From Tatumella ptyseos ATCC 33301 (GTDB taxonomy: Bacteria > Pseudomonadota > Gammaproteobacteria > Enterobacterales > Enterobacteriaceae), in contig NZ_JMPR01000010.1 of the NCBI RefSeq assembly GCF_000735525.1, forward strand, positions 1 through 35,815: DNA of 35,815 bases, written 5' to 3'. This document shows positions 612 to 23,139 of this stretch, piece by piece; position 1 is the stretch's first letter; each line of letters opens with the position of its first letter. A program made the position numbers and the translations under genes. The notes under the pieces were generated by a model. It did not search any database and had not been told where the DNA came from. It saw nothing but the letters and a program-made list of their open reading frames with translations.

Positions 612-1115
612 TTACTGCCATGTATAAGTGACATCCACAACTGACTGTATAGAGCCCTGAGTGGCACTCCCTGCAGAAGAGATCGCCCGGACTTCAAGAT
701 TGAAGGTACTGGACAATGAGGAATCACTGACCGCTGACGTCAGCGTACCGCCGTTGGTAATATTATTACCACTACTGTCTGCCAGCTGTACGGCGATATT
801 CCCTGCCGTGCCCTGGTTTAAGAAATAGGTCCCTGTAGAATCAGAAGTCCCGGTGAAGGTGGCTTTCACACTGCTGGTACCGACAGGACAATTAGTCAGA
901 TCAAGCGCCACGGTCTTCCAGTCAGAAACTGAACCCGCACTCTGCAAGGTCGACGTTGATAATGTTCCCAGACTAACGTTGGCGGTCGTTGTGCTGATCG
1001 TACAGGGTTTAGCGACAACCTGACCGGTGATGGTGATCGTGACATCTGCCGCCTGTACAGCAGCGGCTGCCAGACAGAGTGCCGCACAGATAACTCCTGA
1101 ATATATCGTCTTCAT
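612..1115 (-). CDS. fimG: FimG-type minor pilin, tip fibrillum subunit
   Basis: Minor pilin of 167 residues, probably the subunit that joins the FimH adhesin to the rest of the tip. A signal peptide is followed by cleavage near residue 22 (VQA|ADVTITITG). Two cysteines at about 38 and 76 would form the pilin disulfide, and the chain ends in the alternating hydrophobic strand VDVTYTWQ used for donor-strand exchange. It closely follows recalled E. coli FimG (VVAKPCT, LTNCPVGTS, DSTG, NQGTA, ATQGSIQ). It lies 12 bp downstream of fimF and upstream of fimH, the canonical order, so it is co-transcribed. Nothing is broken. Assignment to FimG rather than a generic pilin rests on both sequence and position. 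Confidence 0.92.
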   Translation of the reverse strand: MKTIYSGVICAALCLAAAAVQAADVTITITGQVVAKPCTISTTTANVSLGTLSTSTLQSAGSVSDWKTVALDLTNCPVGTSSVKATFTGTSDSTGTYFLNQGTAGNIAVQLADSSGNNITNGGTLTSAVSDSSLSSTFNLEVRAISSAGSATQGSIQSVVDVTYTWQ

Positions 1116-1127
1116 CTCTGCCCCTGT

Positions 1128-1661
1128 CTATTCAAATTCCAGAGTGATGGTCGCGGATGCAGTCACTGTACCGGCTGTCACCGGATAAACGGTCGACATC
1201 ATGCGGGCATAAAACGTCAGGCTGTTAGCCTGACCCGCGGTCAGTGTGTGCCAGCTCATATCATCCTCACTCTGATTGATGGGGATAACCGTCTTATCAC
1301 TGTTCAGGATCTCAACACCTATCCCCTGAGCCTCGGTGCTATCACCGCTATCAATGGCCAGTAACGAACTGTTGGTCGTATCTGCCACGCCGGTAAAGCC
1401 CACTTTTACACCGCTGGCGGCACTGCCACAGGAAGAGAAATCCAGTGAGAAAGGCACCATCGGTGAAACAGCCCCCGATTTATTAAATGTTTTGGTCGCA
1501 TAATTCATAAGATCCACCGTCATTGTCTTGGAGGCAGTGGAAACTACGCAGGTATTGTCCTGAACCGTACCGGTGATATTGATGACACTGTCCGCCGCCA
1601 GACAATTTCCAGTCATCGATAAAGGCAGCAGGGATAGCATCAGCGATAAATATAATTTCAT
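1128..1661 (-). CDS. fimF: FimF-type minor pilin, rod-tip adaptor
   Basis: Minor pilin of 177 residues expected to link the FimA rod to FimG in the tip fibrillum. A signal peptide ends LAA|DSVINITG; cysteines at about 38 and 78 make the immunoglobulin-like disulfide; the C-terminus ATITLEFE is a donor or acceptor beta strand. Motifs shared with recalled E. coli FimF include TVDLM, VKVGFTGVAD, FYARMM and PVTAG. It begins 12 bp after the usher stop and ends 12 bp before fimG, so it is translated as part of one transcript. Length is normal and no defect is seen. Confidence 0.92.
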   Translation of the reverse strand: MKLYLSLMLSLLPLSMTGNCLAADSVINITGTVQDNTCVVSTASKTMTVDLMNYATKTFNKSGAVSPMVPFSLDFSSCGSAASGVKVGFTGVADTTNSSLLAIDSGDSTEAQGIGVEILNSDKTVIPINQSEDDMSWHTLTAGQANSLTFYARMMSTVYPVTAGTVTASATITLEFE

Positions 1662-1673
1662 AATAATCCCCGG

Positions 1674-4268
1674 TTACTGACAGTCAGCAGAGGTGTAGCT
1701 TAATACCTGTTTCTGACTGGAAACAGGTAAGTGATAGCTGGCAACACATTGATCTGCCGCACTATCGCCCCATTTGATGTTGATTTTTCCGCTCAGAGGT
1801 AAACCGGACAGATACACCTGACCCGCATCGCCGACAATACTGGAAGACTGGCTGCCAGCCAGCGAGGCTGTCGCCCCGAAAGGAATCGGCTTCCCGTTAT
1901 GGGTGGCCGTCATAATGACTTTCAGTCCAATATGCGTTTTAAAGTCAGCACGGACGACGGCACCATAAGTCGGCACGACGTTGATGACGGCATCGTCCAT
2001 ATCAACGTTATTTGCTAATGTATTGGTATCCAGTGCAATGCGATTTTCACGATAGTTTAAAGCATATGGCTGTACAGCATACCCGCGCCAGTCAGTTCTG
2101 ACACCGGTCTGGTTTTCTACCGAAACATGTGCAGCACCCGGCGCTTTAATCAATACCACGGTGTCATTCATTGGCTGGCTCAGGGTGACTCCGTTAGCAT
2201 GTGCCAGAACACCCCCGCTCACCCCATAATAAACCTGATTGTAACCATCGCTGCCACTATAACCGACGTTAGCATTACCATAAGCACCACGATAATACAG
2301 CGAGGCAGTATTGGATGAGTCTGATGATGATTCACCACCGGAGTTGTACCCGGTCTGTACGTTATAACTGAGGTTATTATCCTGCAGCAGTGTTCCGTAG
2401 ACGCCCACCTGGTTAGTCGATTGTCCTTCGAAATTGCTGGAGCTACTGTAGCTAATGCTTGAGTTACGGAACGCGCTGGTATCATCTGAACGCATCCAGT
2501 GGCTGAACGGAATGTTGACATTCAGTGACAGTACCTTATCCGTACCTTCTGCCCATGCACTTCGGTTCAGGCTGTAGTTTACGCTAAATGTAATGTCCCG
2601 GATGGAACTGCTGTAGCCGGCTTGTAACTGGAGATCATCCTGGTGGGTTCCCCAGTAGGTCTGCTGGCTTCCGGTCAGATAAAGCGTAGAGGTCTTACCC
2701 ACCTGCTGAGTAATTGTCGCCTGCAGGCGTCCGCGTTTGCTGTAAGCAAGATTATAGTAGTCGGTATAGGTCGGTTTCACCTGTAACTCACCGTCCTGAG
2801 TGACTACCGAATAGCCACTCATCTGGTTCCAGGTGGTATCGGCCAGCGAATAATAGCCTTTGGTGGAATAACGGTAACCTACCAGCTGGAAGTTTGTATG
2901 AGTATCCTGCAACGACTTGTTATAGAGGAAACGGAAGGATTGGCCCTGATGATGAGTATTATCGGTCAGGGTAGAACTCGCCTGAGTCGCATCCACTGAT
3001 ACTGCTCCCAGGATGCCAAGGTTCTTACCCAGTCCCAGGTCATAAGCATGATAGTTATCCGATTGCTGGGTCCCGCCATACAGCGTAAACCCGGCCGGTA
3101 GCCCCCACATTGCGATCCCCTGCGCAACTTTAGGGCTGGTCTGTTCGGAGTTACCACTACGAAACTCACCGGCGGTCAGACCATATTTCACCCGTCCTTC
3201 ACGTTGCAACATGGGTACTGAGGAGTAAGGGACGGTGAAAGATTGCGTAGACCCGTTGGCTTCAGTGATCGTTACCTGTAAATCACCACTACTACCATTC
3301 GCATTCAGATCATTAATGGTGAACGGTCCCGGCGGAACCGTTATCTGATAAATATTGTAGCCGTTCTGACGGACTGTAACCCTGGCGGTTCCGGTTGCAA
3401 TGCCGTGGATGACAGGGGCAAAACCCTGCTGGCTGTTCGGCAGCATATCGTCATCAGAGGCAAGCTGAACCCCTCTGAAGTTTATACTGTCAAAGACATC
3501 GCCACTGGTATAACTGTCCCCGATCGTAAGACGACTACGTAACGGAACAACATCCCGTTCCAGATAGGTATTAACATGCTTCCAGGTATTCTGGGTATAT
3601 CCGGTGCTACTGTCATCGTAGTTCCACGTCGAAGTATCTCTTAACCGCCAGGGACCGAAGTTAAAACCGCTTTGCAGATTGAGATACGCATAGGAACTAC
3701 TCCCGCCATTGGGGGTATGTGCATTATTTCCGGTGAAGTTATAGTTGAGCAGTCCGGCGGTGATGCCGTTATCCCACAACGCCGGGGGAATATAGCCATG
3801 AGCCTGATTATGCATCATAGCCTGAGGAATACTCAGATAGAGGCGCTGTGTACCTGCATCAAAGCGGCTTGAGGCTTCTTTACTGATCGTACTAAAGGGG
3901 ATGCAGGACTCTTTTGCCAGTGCGGCAATACCCGGGATGGAAAGAACATCCACCCCCATATCAGACAACAGCCCCCGGGTAATGCATGGGTCCAGGGACT
4001 TTTTATCCGGGCTTAATCCGAAATCTACGGTCCGGGTGGTGTAATAACCATCGTTCAGGTAAATATCTACCCTGTATTTCCCGGGTGGGGCATCGAGACC
4101 ACTTTCAAACTGGGATAAATCAGCAACCGCCCCGGGATCGTTTGATAAAAATCGGGGGTTAAAATAAACATCCGCATAGGCCGCTGATTGGCATGTCAGA
4201 GCCAGAAACAATGCCATCGGTGTAAATGCCAGATTTCGTGACGTGACGTATTTTGCTGATAAGGCCAT
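1674..4268 (-). CDS. fimD: FimD outer-membrane usher
   Basis: Outer-membrane usher that takes chaperone-subunit complexes, catalyses donor-strand exchange and secretes the growing pilus. The mature protein begins DVYFNPRFL, the family-typical start, and continues through the N-terminal chaperone-binding domain, a long Tyr/Gly/Ser-rich 24-strand barrel with plug, and C-terminal domains ending in a Cys pair region. Conserved blocks: NYNFTGN, PLRSRLTIGD, FAPVIHGIA, VPPGPFTIND, YYGVSGGVLAHANGVTL, NQTGVRTDWRGYAV, QVYLSGLPLSGK. The start is uncertain: the frame extends to a TTG at 4319. I prefer the ATG at 4266-4268 (864 residues, 32-residue signal peptide), although neither start has a strong ribosome site. 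It follows fimC and precedes fimF by 12 bp. Confidence 0.93.
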   Translation of the reverse strand: MALSAKYVTSRNLAFTPMALFLALTCQSAAYADVYFNPRFLSNDPGAVADLSQFESGLDAPPGKYRVDIYLNDGYYTTRTVDFGLSPDKKSLDPCITRGLLSDMGVDVLSIPGIAALAKESCIPFSTISKEASSRFDAGTQRLYLSIPQAMMHNQAHGYIPPALWDNGITAGLLNYNFTGNNAHTPNGGSSSYAYLNLQSGFNFGPWRLRDTSTWNYDDSSTGYTQNTWKHVNTYLERDVVPLRSRLTIGDSYTSGDVFDSINFRGVQLASDDDMLPNSQQGFAPVIHGIATGTARVTVRQNGYNIYQITVPPGPFTINDLNANGSSGDLQVTITEANGSTQSFTVPYSSVPMLQREGRVKYGLTAGEFRSGNSEQTSPKVAQGIAMWGLPAGFTLYGGTQQSDNYHAYDLGLGKNLGILGAVSVDATQASSTLTDNTHHQGQSFRFLYNKSLQDTHTNFQLVGYRYSTKGYYSLADTTWNQMSGYSVVTQDGELQVKPTYTDYYNLAYSKRGRLQATITQQVGKTSTLYLTGSQQTYWGTHQDDLQLQAGYSSSIRDITFSVNYSLNRSAWAEGTDKVLSLNVNIPFSHWMRSDDTSAFRNSSISYSSSSNFEGQSTNQVGVYGTLLQDNNLSYNVQTGYNSGGESSSDSSNTASLYYRGAYGNANVGYSGSDGYNQVYYGVSGGVLAHANGVTLSQPMNDTVVLIKAPGAAHVSVENQTGVRTDWRGYAVQPYALNYRENRIALDTNTLANNVDMDDAVINVVPTYGAVVRADFKTHIGLKVIMTATHNGKPIPFGATASLAGSQSSSIVGDAGQVYLSGLPLSGKINIKWGDSAADQCVASYHLPVSSQKQVLSYTSADCQ

Positions 4269-4354
4269 TAGTAAAGTAATCCCGTATAGAATGGCATTTA
4301 GTGAGCCGGCGATAATCAAGATATCGCCGGAATCATCTCAGGGAAGTACGATAT

Positions 4355-5056
4355 TTATTCAAAAACCCCTTTTGTTACCGGAGTCAATGCACCAAAATCA
4401 TTAATCGTCTGGTAGGTAATCTGGCTACCGGCACCCGGCAACAGCGGCACTGAGGTATTCCCCATAGGTGGCACCATAGTATTCGCCAGTGCTTTATTCC
4501 CCGCCATTAACGAAGTCACCGTCAGATAATAGGGCGTCGGGTTAATGAGTACCAGTTGTGATCCGGATTTACGAAAACGTAATTTTTGTGGCGCAGCTTC
4601 CGGCGGCATACTCAATCCCACCGGTCGGTAAAAGAGCTTAATACGACTGATAATGGCTAATTGCAGTGTATTTTGTTTTTCCTGCGAAGAACTCATTGCA
4701 GGGATCGCTTTAACATTCAACCAGAATAATGTTTCACGATCTTTAGGGAGTGTCTGGTTAGTCCCGTCAATAATACGTAAGGTATTTTCCCTTTTACCTT
4801 TGATGACGAATAAGGGAGGGGTTACAACAAAACGGTCTTCGCGTTGCCCCGCGGCATTTTCAATCCATGACTGAATAAGATAAGTACTCTTATCATCATT
4901 GTTACTGATACCCAATGAGACCTGTTTTTGATTCGAAGGATAAACGACCCGGGTAGCACCAAGAGCAACACCAGCTTCCGCCTGACCTGCAATACCTAGA
5001 GAGGTGACAGCCATAAATCCTATGGCCAATATTTTCTTATGTATACCTTGAATCAT
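4355..5056 (-). CDS. fimC: FimC periplasmic pilus chaperone
   Basis: Periplasmic PapD/FimC-like chaperone of 233 residues that folds pilin subunits by donor-strand complementation and delivers them to the usher. A signal peptide is cleaved after AEA (residue 28), giving mature GVALGATRVVYP; the invariant Arg8 of the mature chain and the Lys in IKLFYRP form the subunit-anchoring cleft. The G1-strand region, interface motif LFWLNVKAIP and C-terminal NPTPYYLTV all match the family. The start was set at the ATG at 5054-5056, because AGGAGAG lies seven bases upstream; an ATG further upstream (5095) lacks this. It lies between fimI and fimD. Length is normal. Confidence 0.95.
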   Translation of the reverse strand: MIQGIHKKILAIGFMAVTSLGIAGQAEAGVALGATRVVYPSNQKQVSLGISNNDDKSTYLIQSWIENAAGQREDRFVVTPPLFVIKGKRENTLRIIDGTNQTLPKDRETLFWLNVKAIPAMSSSQEKQNTLQLAIISRIKLFYRPVGLSMPPEAAPQKLRFRKSGSQLVLINPTPYYLTVTSLMAGNKALANTMVPPMGNTSVPLLPGAGSQITYQTINDFGALTPVTKGVFE

Positions 5057-5118
5057 TACTCTCTCTCCTAAATCAATAAACCCATATGCTAACAAGATGT
5101 TATATTTCGTTATTTTTA

Positions 5119-5655
5119 TTACTGATAGGTTAAAGAAAACCAGGCCTGCGCATTAGCAAGACCACCGGTAACATCACTTGAAGTCGACCGGTATTTCGCA
5201 ATTAAATTAAGCACCAGCGGACCGGAGTTGATATCCCTGACGGATAAAATTCCGCTATTAACCGGTATAAGATCCCCCTGTTCATCAAACAGGGCAATCC
5301 CGATTCCGTGGGCAACATTATTACCTTGTTCAATTGCCAATAAATCAGGATTCTGCTGATCAGCAACCCCACGAAACACGATATTCATATTTCGTTTTAC
5401 GCTTTGACTACAATGCTTGAAATACAGAGAAAATAAAACAGGATCAGAATCATCGCCGGCATGGATAAATTTATTATTACTGACCTGTCCCATTGGCACG
5501 GTCAGATATTGTTCGCCATCATCCACAATGCAGGTATCTGATAAAATTTCACCCTGAAATCTCATTAATCCGCCGGCCAGTGTAATATTGTTTGGTGGTG
5601 AGGCTATCGCCTGACCCATGACTACCAGCAGGAAAAATAATCTGATTTTCCACAT
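5119..5655 (-). CDS. fimI: FimI-type fimbrial subunit
   Basis: Pilin-like protein of 178 residues matching FimI, thought in E. coli to help terminate or anchor the rod at the usher. A signal peptide (about residues 1-19) precedes ITLAGGLMRFQGEI; cysteines are at about 42 and 82, and the C-terminus reads GGLANAQAWFSLTYQ, nearly the same as recalled E. coli FimI. Further matches are VPMGQVS, FRGVAD and IGIALFDEQG. It lies 76 bp after fimA, across two hairpins that may lower its expression relative to the major pilin. No defect seen. Confidence 0.9.
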   Translation of the reverse strand: MWKIRLFFLLVVMGQAIASPPNNITLAGGLMRFQGEILSDTCIVDDGEQYLTVPMGQVSNNKFIHAGDDSDPVLFSLYFKHCSQSVKRNMNIVFRGVADQQNPDLLAIEQGNNVAHGIGIALFDEQGDLIPVNSGILSVRDINSGPLVLNLIAKYRSTSSDVTGGLANAQAWFSLTYQ

Positions 5656-5686
5656 AGCATATTCTCTGTATCAGGAAAATAAAGTC

Positions 5687-5719
5687 GGACCTTCCCTGGT
5701 CCAGGGTATAGAAATACCC
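5687..5719 (-). promoter_or_regulatory. Tandem hairpins between fimA and fimI
   Basis: Two inverted repeats sit back to back just after the fimA stop: GGGTAT/ATACCC at 5704-5709 and 5714-5719, and GGACC/GGTCC at 5687-5691 and 5698-5702. On the minus strand a moderately U-rich stretch (GACTTTATTTT) follows. I infer a partial terminator or RNA-stabilising 3' structure that lets fimA mRNA outnumber the downstream message, as in other pilus operons. Confidence 0.45.
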
Positions 5720-5731
5720 GCTTATATATTC

Positions 5732-6304
5732 TTACTGATACTGCACCTGGAAAGTTGCATCTGCGTTTGCTGTACCGGCAGTTGCTTCACCCAGTGCATA
5801 GTAACGCGCCTGGAATGGCAGGGAGTTAGTACCAGATACCAGAGTTTTAGTGGCGCTGAAAGTTCCGCCATCCAGAGGCAGCGCTGTACCAGTGCTGTCC
5901 AGGATCTGGATACCGACATTAGCAGCTGAACCTGCTGAAGAGCTCTGCAGTGCTAAAACAGCCGGGTAAGACGTTGAAGTACCGGTTGAGCTAGTACTGG
6001 TCGCCTGAACCCCTGTAAAAGCAATAGAAGCTTTCGTTGCAGTTGAAACATCGCAATCATCTAACTGAATATTGAAACCGACAGCGCTGCTGGTATCACC
6101 GGCAGCAGCAAGGGTGCTGGCCTTAACCTGACCCAGTTGTACAGTTTGATTAACAGAACCAGCATCTACCGCACAAGCCGCATCAACAACTTCACCTTCG
6201 AAGTGGACAGTACCACCATTAACTGTGGTGGTGGCAGCGTGTGCCATAGATACAGTCAGAGAAAGAGCAGAAAGGACGCCAACTACCAGTGATTTGATTT
6301 GCAT
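5732..6304 (-). CDS. fimA: FimA-type major fimbrial subunit
   Basis: Major rod pilin, 190 residues, first gene of the fim operon. The start at the ATG at 6302-6304 gives a normal signal peptide cleaved at AHA|ATTT (residue 23); the frame runs further upstream but that stretch has no pilin or signal character. Cysteines at about 44 and 84 form the disulfide, and the chain ends [10 protein letters not shown], the polymerisation strand. Conserved blocks are [27 protein letters not shown] and [10 protein letters not shown] Ser/Thr-rich loop around residues 101-114 is longer than I recall in E. coli FimA. It is preceded by a short leader ORF and a tandem repeat. Major-pilin identity follows from its first position and hairpins behind it. 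Confidence 0.94.
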
Positions 6305-19758: not shown

Positions 19759-20966
<1,208 letters not shown>

Positions 20967-21060
20967 GACGGCTTACTCTCCCTTACTTAAGTTGGGTATA
21001 TCGTGTGTTACACAAACTACTGTTACCACTCCAAAGGAGTGAACAGCAAAAGCCGTGCAA

Positions 21061-21088
21061 ATTATACGGGGCACTCCTACGATTTCAA
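21061..21088 (-). promoter_or_regulatory. Main promoter of the atp operon
   Basis: On the minus strand TTGAAA (21083-21088), a 16-base spacer and a perfect TATAAT (21061-21066) are followed by TTGCACGG. It lies about 95 bp upstream of atpI, with no gene between. Consensus quality and position support it as the operon promoter. Confidence 0.8.
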
Positions 21089-21503
21089 TCTGTAAGTAGA
21101 GAAAAGGTGAACAATTATTTAAAATTCTTTCTTAAACGGAATTTTGACCCATAATCTTCGCCAAAAATCGCAGACTTACAGCTTTTCGGCCCGTTTTTAG
21201 TCAGGGTTTTCCTCTCGTAAACTGAACTCTTTTCGCGGTACAACAGATACTACTCCCGAAAAATACCTTTAACCTCACATTTAGTGTTGTTATTAAAGGT
21301 TTTATTATTCCATTTTTTTATCAATTATTTTACAAACAGGATAAATATAAAATATATAATCGGGATATTCAGGTTAAAAAATAAGAATAATTTATAAAAA
21401 AACGCTGTAATTTATTCACCATCGAAAGTCCGGGAGTAATACAGGCATTCCCGGGCTTACCCCGGAAATTGAGGTACTGAGTATCATCGGAGGGGTGACG
21501 ATT
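21089..21503. other. Intergenic region between the atp promoter and the microcin-like unit
   Basis: About 415 bp with no ORF I believe. It is AT-rich around 21290-21420. I found no RNA gene, no repeat and no insertion-sequence end. Confidence 0.5.
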
Positions 21504-21533
21504 AAAAAGGGGGATGATGATAATCTATCCCCC
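21504..21533 (-). terminator. Terminator of the microcin-like gene
   Basis: On the minus strand GGGGGAT (21527-21533) pairs with ATCCCCC (21509-21515) across an 11-base loop and is followed by TTTTT (21504-21508). A smaller hairpin, CTGGCGG/CCGTCAG, lies just before it. It lies 63 bp after the stop codon at 21596. Confidence 0.85.
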
Positions 21534-21595
21534 GGAGACTGACGGCATTACCGCCAGTGATGACAAAAGGGATTAATCAGACATAACACCGCTTA

Positions 21596-21889
21596 TCAGG
21601 CGGCGGACTTGCGCTGACCGATAATGCTGATAGCATTTTGTACAATGCCCGTTACCCCTAACCCGATGCCGGCCGTTGCCAGAATAGGCGAGAATCCGAC
21701 GATAGCGGCAATCCCTCCACCTAACAGAGCCCCTGACACTTTAAAGTTCGATTTCAGGTTCAGGCCCGAACATCCGGCATCAACCACTGAACCGATAGCA
21801 AAGCCCATCGTTGCGCCGATAGGACCAGTGAAGAAAGTAAAAAGACCACCGCTTACCTGATTTGTTTCGATCACTGAAAGCTCTTTCAT
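21596..21889 (-). CDS. Double-glycine-leader peptide, class II microcin-like precursor
   Basis: A 97-residue protein I do not recognise as a named gene. Its N-terminus MKELSVIETNQVSGG is a textbook double-glycine leader (compare colicin V, MRTLTLNELDSVSGG), the signal cut by C39-peptidase ABC exporters. The predicted mature 82 residues are glycine-, alanine- and isoleucine-rich and strongly hydrophobic, with GAxxGxxxG-like repeats and a single cysteine (residue 40), ending in a basic tail QRKSAA. This composition matches pore-forming class II microcins. AAGGAT is eight bases before the ATG. It has its own promoter and terminator, so it is monocistronic. No immunity gene or C39 exporter is nearby. 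Alternatives are an export-matched signalling peptide or an orphan remnant. The leader is clear; toxic activity is inference. Confidence 0.8.
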   Translation of the reverse strand: MKELSVIETNQVSGGLFTFFTGPIGATMGFAIGSVVDAGCSGLNLKSNFKVSGALLGGGIAAIVGFSPILATAGIGLGVTGIVQNAISIIGQRKSAA

Positions 21890-21922
21890 AAAATATCCTT
21901 ATATATAAATGACCATATTTCG

Positions 21923-21950
21923 ATTATATGCTCCCGCACACGCCTGACAG
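21923..21950 (-). promoter_or_regulatory. Predicted promoter of the microcin-like gene
   Basis: On the minus strand CTGTCA (21945-21950), a 16-base spacer and a perfect TATAAT (21923-21928) lie 34 bp upstream of the start codon. I saw no Fur box or other operator. Confidence 0.65.
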
Positions 21951-22482
21951 CTTTGCGGAACAGGCTGCAGTAAATAGACTGCGCTGTTAATCTATATCAA
22001 AAAAAAACCTTAGTAAACAATGCGATATATTCAAAAAAATCATTTAATTAACAACATGCAGTTCATGAATAATTACATAAGAAAAAAATGGTTTTTTAAA
22101 TTAAAGGCCGGTGTCACTGTAAAAACAAACAAAAATCAGCCAGTGAAATAAAACCAAAAATATAAATTAATCATAGAGGTAACACTCATTACGGTTAACG
22201 TCCTGGTCCTGCATTCTATAAAACAGATTTACTCATTAGCACTGAAACTATCTTATTCAGTGATCACGACGAATACTCCAGCCCCGATAATCCGGCACGG
22301 AATCGCTAGCACACTATCTGTTAAAATTTCATAAAGCATTAATCCAACGGAAAGCCGTATTTCTGAGAGTTTTTCTGTTCTGGCGGAGTAAATCAGGACT
22401 TAATAACGTTTTTTATGTCAGGCAGGTCACATAAAAAAGTAAAAATAGGACATTAACTACGGGCGGAGGAAACAAACGCGGA
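21951..22482. other. AT-rich intergenic region between rsmG and the microcin-like gene
   Basis: About 530 bp, AT-rich especially at 22000-22170. The longest thing seen is a 31-codon plus-strand ORF at 22056 with no ribosome site, which I do not believe. No immunity-protein ORF, RNA gene or mobile-element end was found. Confidence 0.5.
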
Positions 22483-22505
22483 ATACCGGCAAGGTTTGCC
22501 GGTAT
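22483..22505 (-). terminator. Hairpin downstream of rsmG
   Basis: Perfect ten-base arms ATACCGGCAA/TTGCCGGTAT (22483-22492, 22496-22505) with a three-base loop, 14 bp after the rsmG stop. No T-run follows, so termination may be incomplete or Rho-assisted. Confidence 0.55.
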
Positions 22506-22518
22506 GGGTATTCAGGAA

Positions 22519-23139
22519 TTATTGTTGCTTCAGAATGACCAGGTGCCGCTCACCTTCCAGGTCAGGTACCTGTAATGATATGACGGATTCCAGAACCAGA
22601 TGTTCAGGGAGTGCAGAAAGCTCTTCATCCGGAACCTGCCCTTTCAGTGCATAAAAGCGCCCCTGCCCTGCCGCCGGCAGGTGATGGCACCAGCTCACCA
22701 TATCCTGCAAAGAAGCAAATGCCCGGCTTATCACCCCATCAAACAGCGGCTCGTCAGTAAAAGCCTCAACCCGACTTTGCACCGGCGTGATATTTTCCAG
22801 TTTCAGTTCGTGCTGCACCTGCCGTAAAAAACGAACCCGCTTACCCAGGCTGTCCAGTAAGGTGAAATGTGCATGCGGACAGACAATGGATAGTGGAATA
22901 CCTGGCAATCCCGGGCCGGTACCGACATCTATAAATTTCCGGCCTTCCAGGTAAGGTGCAACAACAATACTGTCCATAATATGGCGGATAAGCATCTGCT
23001 GAGGGTCACGAACGGAAGTCAGGTTATAAGCTTTGTTCCACTTGTCCAGCATACCGACATAACTGACCAGCTGATGTTTTTGCTGATCGGAGAGCGAAAT
23101 ACCAGCGCGGTGAAGTAGCGAGGAAAGAGTATTAATCAC
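22519..23139 (-). CDS. rsmG: 16S rRNA (guanine-527-N7)-methyltransferase
   Basis: Methylates N7 of G527 in 16S rRNA using S-adenosylmethionine (formerly gidB); 206 residues, E. coli 207. The SAM-binding region is [17 protein letters not shown], with [15 protein letters not shown] and [18 protein letters not shown] downstream, nearly identical to E. coli. The start codon is GTG (23137-23139) with AGGAA about nine bases upstream. It follows mnmG after 57 bp, as in most enterobacteria, and is probably co-transcribed with it. Confidence 0.98.

Follow-up and report, generated by a model that had tools for sequence, protein, structure and literature searches.

In Tatumella ptyseos ATCC 33301 the interval between rsmG and atpI holds a real gene for a 97-residue precursor, the product of which is probably a C39-exported, glycine-zipper peptide of the bacteriocin-like kind, Cdz-like in sequence and active on membranes. 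The window studied here, that is the whole stretch of 35,815 nucleotides, is contig G000:C10 of the 3.53-Mb genome, and the positions of the relevant features are collected in Table 1. The reading to which we would give somewhat better than an even chance is that the gene specifies a peptide with a double-glycine leader, which is exported in trans and most likely acts in a bacteriocin-like manner on the membranes of neighbouring cells. On such a reading, the leader would direct the precursor to a C39 peptidase-containing ABC exporter (PCAT) encoded at a phoU–nfeD locus; the PCAT would cut after G15, and a cationic glycine-zipper peptide of 82 residues would leave the cell via an adaptor and a TolC-type protein, and might then insert into the membranes of nearby cells, which would probably be relatives. 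The long peptide would perhaps act together with a 73-residue companion, as CdzC does with CdzD in Caulobacter, a pairing suggested by the co-occurrence of the two. The names rsmG, atpI, mnmG, phoU, nfeD, qmcA, mnmE and MFS transporter are those which we take the sequences to indicate, and do not come from profile matches.

Table 1. Features of the precursor gene and its surroundings, numbered from the first nucleotide of the window.
Feature	Position	Strand	Basis or remark
rsmG, upstream flank	22519..23139	minus	flank conserved
Conserved upstream block TTGTTTACTAAG-N2-TTTTTTTTGATATAG	21992..22020	minus	29 bp, ~100 (102) nt before the ATG
Promoter-like CTGTCA-16-TATAAT, as originally proposed	21923..21950	minus	promoter scan; not conserved
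Ribosome binding site AAGGAT	21895..21900	minus	identical in 4/4 Tatumella orthologues
Precursor peptide gene, 97 aa	21596..21889, including stop codon	minus	open reading frame list, ATG start
Double-glycine leader MKELSVIETNQVSGG, residues 1–15	21845..21889	minus	GG kept in homologues; like the companion leaders
Predicted mature peptide, 82 aa, 7912 Da	21599..21844	minus	translation, homologue alignment
Terminator-like hairpin and T5	21504..21533	minus	folding
atpI, downstream flank	20586..20966	minus	context

That the 97-codon frame is a gene is clear because it has orthologues, dN/dS ratios of 0.077–0.160, a conserved ribosome site and, at all four of its Tatumella loci, a hairpin with a T-run. 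The orthologues occur in four of the six Tatumella genomes, its own included (identities 94, 76 and 66%), and all four sit between rsmG and atpI. These ratios come from the five Tatumella pairs computed, several of which are saturated (dS > 1); elsewhere the long peptide gives 0.037 for a pair from genus g246 and 0.225 for a pair from g193. The surrounding intergenic DNA, as judged by eye, largely aligns poorly in Tatumella, the 29-bp block, the ribosome site and the stretch immediately before atpI being exceptions. The stretch before atpI (20967-21154) is strongly kept in Tatumella and partly in g246, whether the peptide gene is present or not, and contains a minus-strand TTGAAA-16-TATAAT (21088-21061).

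Searches further afield add little to this set of relatives. A class-level search gave matches in three of 369 genomes, its own included, and the other two lie inside frames of 253 and 974 aa. Plasmid and phage records yielded nothing related to the window peptide, plasmid records nothing related to the g193 homologue L082, and the E. coli genomes gave no match to DNA 21400-22500 of the window. Weak matches in G022 and G008 (E 0.007) were set aside, since the open frames that contain them are 521 and 934 aa long, as was the candidate L041, which is without a leader.

The original prediction was of a complete single-gene transcription unit. Its ribosome site stands, and so does its terminator with T5: the hairpin GGGGGAU...AUCCCCC and the UUUUU after it occupy 21533-21504, a 54-nt segment containing the hairpin has a folding energy of -23.1 kcal/mol (z -3.65 against shuffles), and hairpins with a T-run, differing in sequence, fold 3' of the gene in all four Tatumella genomes, the shuffle control applying to the window hairpin. 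A simple terminator scan picks up the hairpins of G004 and G002 and misses those of G000 and G003, that of the window being missed because the loop rule of the scan is narrower. Of the proposed promoter, the CTGTCA-16-TATAAT match exists at 21950-21923 and fits 10 of 12 consensus positions, but in an alignment by eye the pair is absent from the other three Tatumella orthologues; moreover, the region holds six promoter-like sites against 3.7 +/- 1.8 in shuffles, such that the match is weak evidence. Between the conserved block and the ATG, a promoter scan of the gene's strand in those three orthologues found no promoter-like site.

The conserved block itself is probably the better candidate for a promoter or a regulator site. 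It matches its motif at 27, 27, 27 and 25 of 27 positions in the four Tatumella orthologues, although the motif was drawn from the same four sequences on which it was scored. As a 26-mer with up to three mismatches it has a single occurrence in the genome, and at the same score the motif is absent from other genera and from the exporter locus; by eye, TGTTTACAAAG is kept at a similar place in genus g246.

With regard to the product, the original description of a double-glycine leader before an 82-residue, glycine-rich and hydrophobic core with one cysteine was correct. The core has 16 glycines, a GRAVY value of 1.0 and a charge of +2.75, that is, it is cationic, and it ends in a short charged or polar C-terminus, GQRKSAA, a feature less clear in the homologues L004 and L065. 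The original prediction had named a non-conserved GG motif as a result that would tell against it; in the event G14 and G15 are invariant in all ten long homologues aligned, and the predicted C39 cleavage site falls after G15. Equally invariant in the ten are G53/G57/G65 and the GxxxGxxxG zipper G25/G29/G33, the latter being flanked in the window peptide by P23 before and D37 after and not interrupted. Counting the leader, 29 columns are invariant, and the single cysteine, retained in six of the ten, is poorly conserved. In the window sequence taken singly, the number of GxxxGxxxG motifs is not above the expectation from composition (p 0.35), and the predicted structure of the peptide (pLDDT 50) is unusable as a model.

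The gene had been called an orphan. This holds for its position, since no exporter gene adjoins it, but not for the genome, in which a plausible exporter is encoded elsewhere, as is a partner peptide. Indeed, the C39 exporter for which a search of the remaining genome had been proposed is there: Peptidase_C39 (PF03412) matches above cut-off occur in five of the six Tatumella genomes and, in that of T. ptyseos, there is one, at G000:C8, together with an adaptor gene. Below the cut-off, C39-like matches are found at L015 (G000:C17:5397-5648) and L014 (G003:C25), the open frames around them being 733 and 736 aa long, respectively. The locus runs phoU – MFS transporter – 73-aa peptide – adaptor – PCAT – nfeD – qmcA – mnmE, in which the HlyD-type adaptor (435 aa) and the PCAT (703 aa) were both assigned by profile, and a TolC-type protein (TIGR01844) lies above cut-off in all six Tatumella genomes. 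The PCAT carries C32, H105 and D121, an intact catalytic triad identical in residues and numbers to that given for CvaB (PMC9746304). The distance between the peptide gene and the exporter is 84 kb in G003 and 129 kb in G004, and in the window genome the two are on different contigs.

Adjoining the exporter in all five Tatumella exporter loci is the companion, a peptide of 73 or 74 aa. In each case it starts M-K-x-L-T..E...VSGA, much like the window peptide, in which GG stands in place of GA, and a profile–profile comparison of the long peptides with the companions aligns their leaders only (probability 31%, E 5e-4), with no alignment outside the leader. One genome, G005, has the exporter and the companion and is without the long peptide. 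A third family of GA-leader peptides, of 98 aa and reading 'MKEL..IE.A.VSGAGGIVD', is seen in two Tatumella genomes, at L108:8938-9234 (G005) and L109:8767-9063 (G002); the open reading frames listed around these loci include no obvious exporter.

The same two-locus layout recurs in a second genus, g246, where the long peptide lies between rsmG and atpI in four of five genomes, in tandem in one, and where the same four genomes have a companion and an adaptor beside phoU; the PCAT is whole in two of them and its start is seen in the other two (G1120, G1121). The tandem duplication is at L098:859-1785 in G1121, and in G675 a second, weaker long-peptide match with one stop falls in the same rsmG–atpI interval. 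Outside Tatumella there are six full-length homologues, 54–67% identical to the window peptide (alignment A5). In genus g193, where two genomes were read of the four with any match (those in G476 and G579 being leader-only), a peptide of 63% identity in G648 is divergent from an adaptor gene with the PCAT next to it, and one of 58% identity in G708 is likewise divergent from an adaptor, the contig ending within ~1.4 kb. Also in G648, a 75-aa GA peptide stands in 18.5 kb of sequence free of any exporter, and further peptide matches lie ~2 kb from a second C39 gene. For loci outside Tatumella, the neighbourhoods comprise open reading frames of at least 60 aa or leader-like ones, L087 being covered up to near its end and L088 in small part, and for L052, L055 and L057 the frames not fitting the leader pattern were read directly. 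In G733 the pst genes near the exporter are preceded by a CpxRA-like pair.

This constancy of place may be read in another way, namely that the long peptide by the atp operon, and the short peptide with the shared exporter by phoU, would form a vertically inherited two-peptide system at two fixed places, with no immunity gene and serving, instead of warfare, a housekeeping function, for instance in kin-directed lysis or surface assembly. We consider this rather unlikely. In G648 of g193 the layout is reversed, such that the long peptide is exporter-linked and a short one stands alone.

The association of peptide and exporter can be followed more widely with profile A4, which was built from the four long peptides and the five companions together with six peptides of more distant relationship, and which matches 57 of the 392 genomes of the GTDB family. 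A C39 exporter is present in 54 of the 57 peptide-bearing genomes against 86 of the 335 others (Fisher p 2.9e-24), counts which assume that both searches covered the same 392 genomes and which take related genomes separately, so that the test is not free of relatedness. Counted by genus, the exporter occurs in 33 of 33 with the peptide and in 33 of 121 without it (p 1.6e-15). Since profile A4 includes exporter-linked short peptides, the co-occurrence test is not independent for those peptides. Of the ten genomes represented in the long-family alignment, nine have a C39 exporter, the exception being G708.

In the 11 genomes of Tatumella and g246, long peptide and exporter are found together in eight, the exporter without the long peptide in one (G005), and the long peptide without the exporter in none; G001 and G530 have neither, G530 by its absence from the C39 matches. 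The last of these counts bears on the view that the gene is a relic, a once-linked microcin gene the export or function of which has been lost. Such a view would suit a gene that is unlinked to its exporter and missing from two of six Tatumella and one of five g246 genomes. It is very improbable in the face of a peptide never seen without an exporter in these 11 genomes, of the low dN/dS in Tatumella, and of an intact frame with a conserved ribosome site and upstream block before it and a hairpin downstream.

In naming the peptide, the profiles give a divided answer. The original prediction had looked to a leader-profile match, and no match was found for the window peptide among curated bacteriocin and microcin profiles, nor with Pfam MccV (PF17508), for which two of the ten homologues are weak matches (best E 0.48). 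On the other hand, two homologues pass TIGR03949, 'class IIb bacteriocin, lactobin A/cerein 7B family' (L054 with 28.0 bits and L083 with 22.7, against a cut-off of 21.5), and the leader aligns with the companion leaders; the window peptide itself gives no reported match to TIGR03949. This family takes its name from Gram-positive bacteriocins. Of what marks a class II microcin, a GG leader is present, as is, in the genome, a PCAT with its triad, adaptor and TolC, whereas an immunity gene near the precursor and similarity to verified microcins, as judged by PF17508, are not. Likewise, the class IIa microcins (V, L, N and PDI) are alike in having a GG or GA leader and export by PCAT, adaptor and TolC; unlike them, the window peptide is without an adjacent immunity gene, and its single cysteine is poorly conserved. 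The name 'microcin' as first given is therefore not earned, there being no adjacent conserved immunity gene and no Pfam MccV match.

The nearer likeness is to the Cdz-like peptides, which are described as being of 60–151 aa, with a leader ending in G[G/A/S], glycine zippers, a polar charged C-terminus and a type I exporter, and of which the carriers include Erwinia sp. (PMC5380434). In sequence the window peptide shares the length (97 aa), the GG, the uninterrupted zipper and the charged or polar C-terminus. The Cdz search rule, by which a type I exporter must lie no more than ~10 kb away, excludes the gene in the window genome, G003 and G004, and admits the homologue of G648. Compared by description, CdzC/CdzD of Caulobacter crescentus are alike in length, leader, zippers, exporter type and a possible two-peptide action, and differ in that the gene here is far from its exporter and has no immunity gene that could be found. 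Cdz-like peptides depolarise the membranes of touching cells (PMC8386478).

Immunity genes were sought at both Tatumella loci. In the rsmG–atpI interval, for which open reading frames of at least 25 aa of G000 were checked, no conserved immunity candidate was found; besides the peptide and antisense frames, those of G000 had matches either in G003, a close relative, and nowhere else, or in genomes without the peptide as well. A 49-aa frame near atpI was dropped as a candidate on the latter ground, having matches in the peptide-less G001 and G005. Similarly, in the MFS–adaptor interval the frames other than companion and antisense were matched only in G003, and no conserved immunity candidate was seen. 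It is because neither locus has a conserved immunity gene that the product is called a C39-exported glycine-zipper bacteriocin-like peptide and not a proven microcin. Perhaps not every microcin has an immunity gene (PMC9746304); in the most active cluster of another study, immunity candidates adjoined or overlapped all six Erwinia/Pantoea candidates (PMC13174018).

The absence of an immunity gene, taken with the fixed place of the gene, keeps a self- or kin-directed role as a candidate, as for the gonococcal Nap peptides. In such a role the peptide would be retained at the cell surface and serve autolysis, biofilm or amyloid-like aggregation, and would need no dedicated immunity protein. Purifying selection and a fixed place in two genera are in accord with this and are unlike the Cdz-like clusters, which are patchy and often transposase-flanked (PMC5380434). 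The Nap peptides, described as bacteriocin-like, with GG leaders and C39 processing sites, provide a precedent in that they promote autolysis with no detectable antimicrobial activity; they are, however, three peptides borne on an island with a candidate immunity gene, which weakens the parallel (PMC11798529). Further, immunity may be unlinked or unrecognised, and two homologues fall under a bacteriocin-type family name. Overall, the probability of a self- or kin-directed role appears fairly low.

The missing immunity gene would also be expected of a secreted signalling peptide, or pheromone, using the same exporter and with a receptor elsewhere, for which the original prediction had left room. 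A GG leader and C39 export are common to Gram-positive pheromones. These pheromones are short, however, whereas the window precursor is long and has a hydrophobic glycine-rich core, with its 29 invariant columns over ten homologues; moreover, inspection of the window genome by eye shows no regulator gene next to either the peptide or the exporter. Signalling is thus quite improbable, and a bacteriocin-like action on membranes remains the favoured reading.

The kind of peptide is already known; this peptide and its conserved split layout were not found in print. A literature search on Tatumella with class II microcins or bacteriocins gave no description of the window gene or of the split layout, and the available portions of PMC11494933, PMC8386478 and PMC10142583 hold no description of the gene. 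Relatives may already sit in the supplement of PMC9746304, since microcin hits are given there for 40.0% of the sampled Erwiniaceae species. What the locus offers is a concrete case of a bacteriocin-like peptide fixed in place over two genera, probably exported in trans and with no recognisable immunity gene. It bears on how many Gram-negative GG-leader peptides escape searches of exporter neighbourhoods, and on whether some of them are no weapons at all.

Some further loci may be recorded. In the window, positions 612-6304 hold what by eye is an ordinary chaperone-usher fimbrial cluster. At L091:7313-11988 (G665:C1:3093500-3113000) five different GG- or GA-leader glycine-zipper peptide frames lie on one strand within 4.7 kb, with one 206-aa frame among the peptides and no exporter-gene match in the 19.5 kb shown. 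At L037, L038 and L040, in genomes of 2.6–2.9 Mb, GA-leader peptides of 72–82 aa, in tandem or singly, stand beside an adaptor gene; these belong to another family of the same order.
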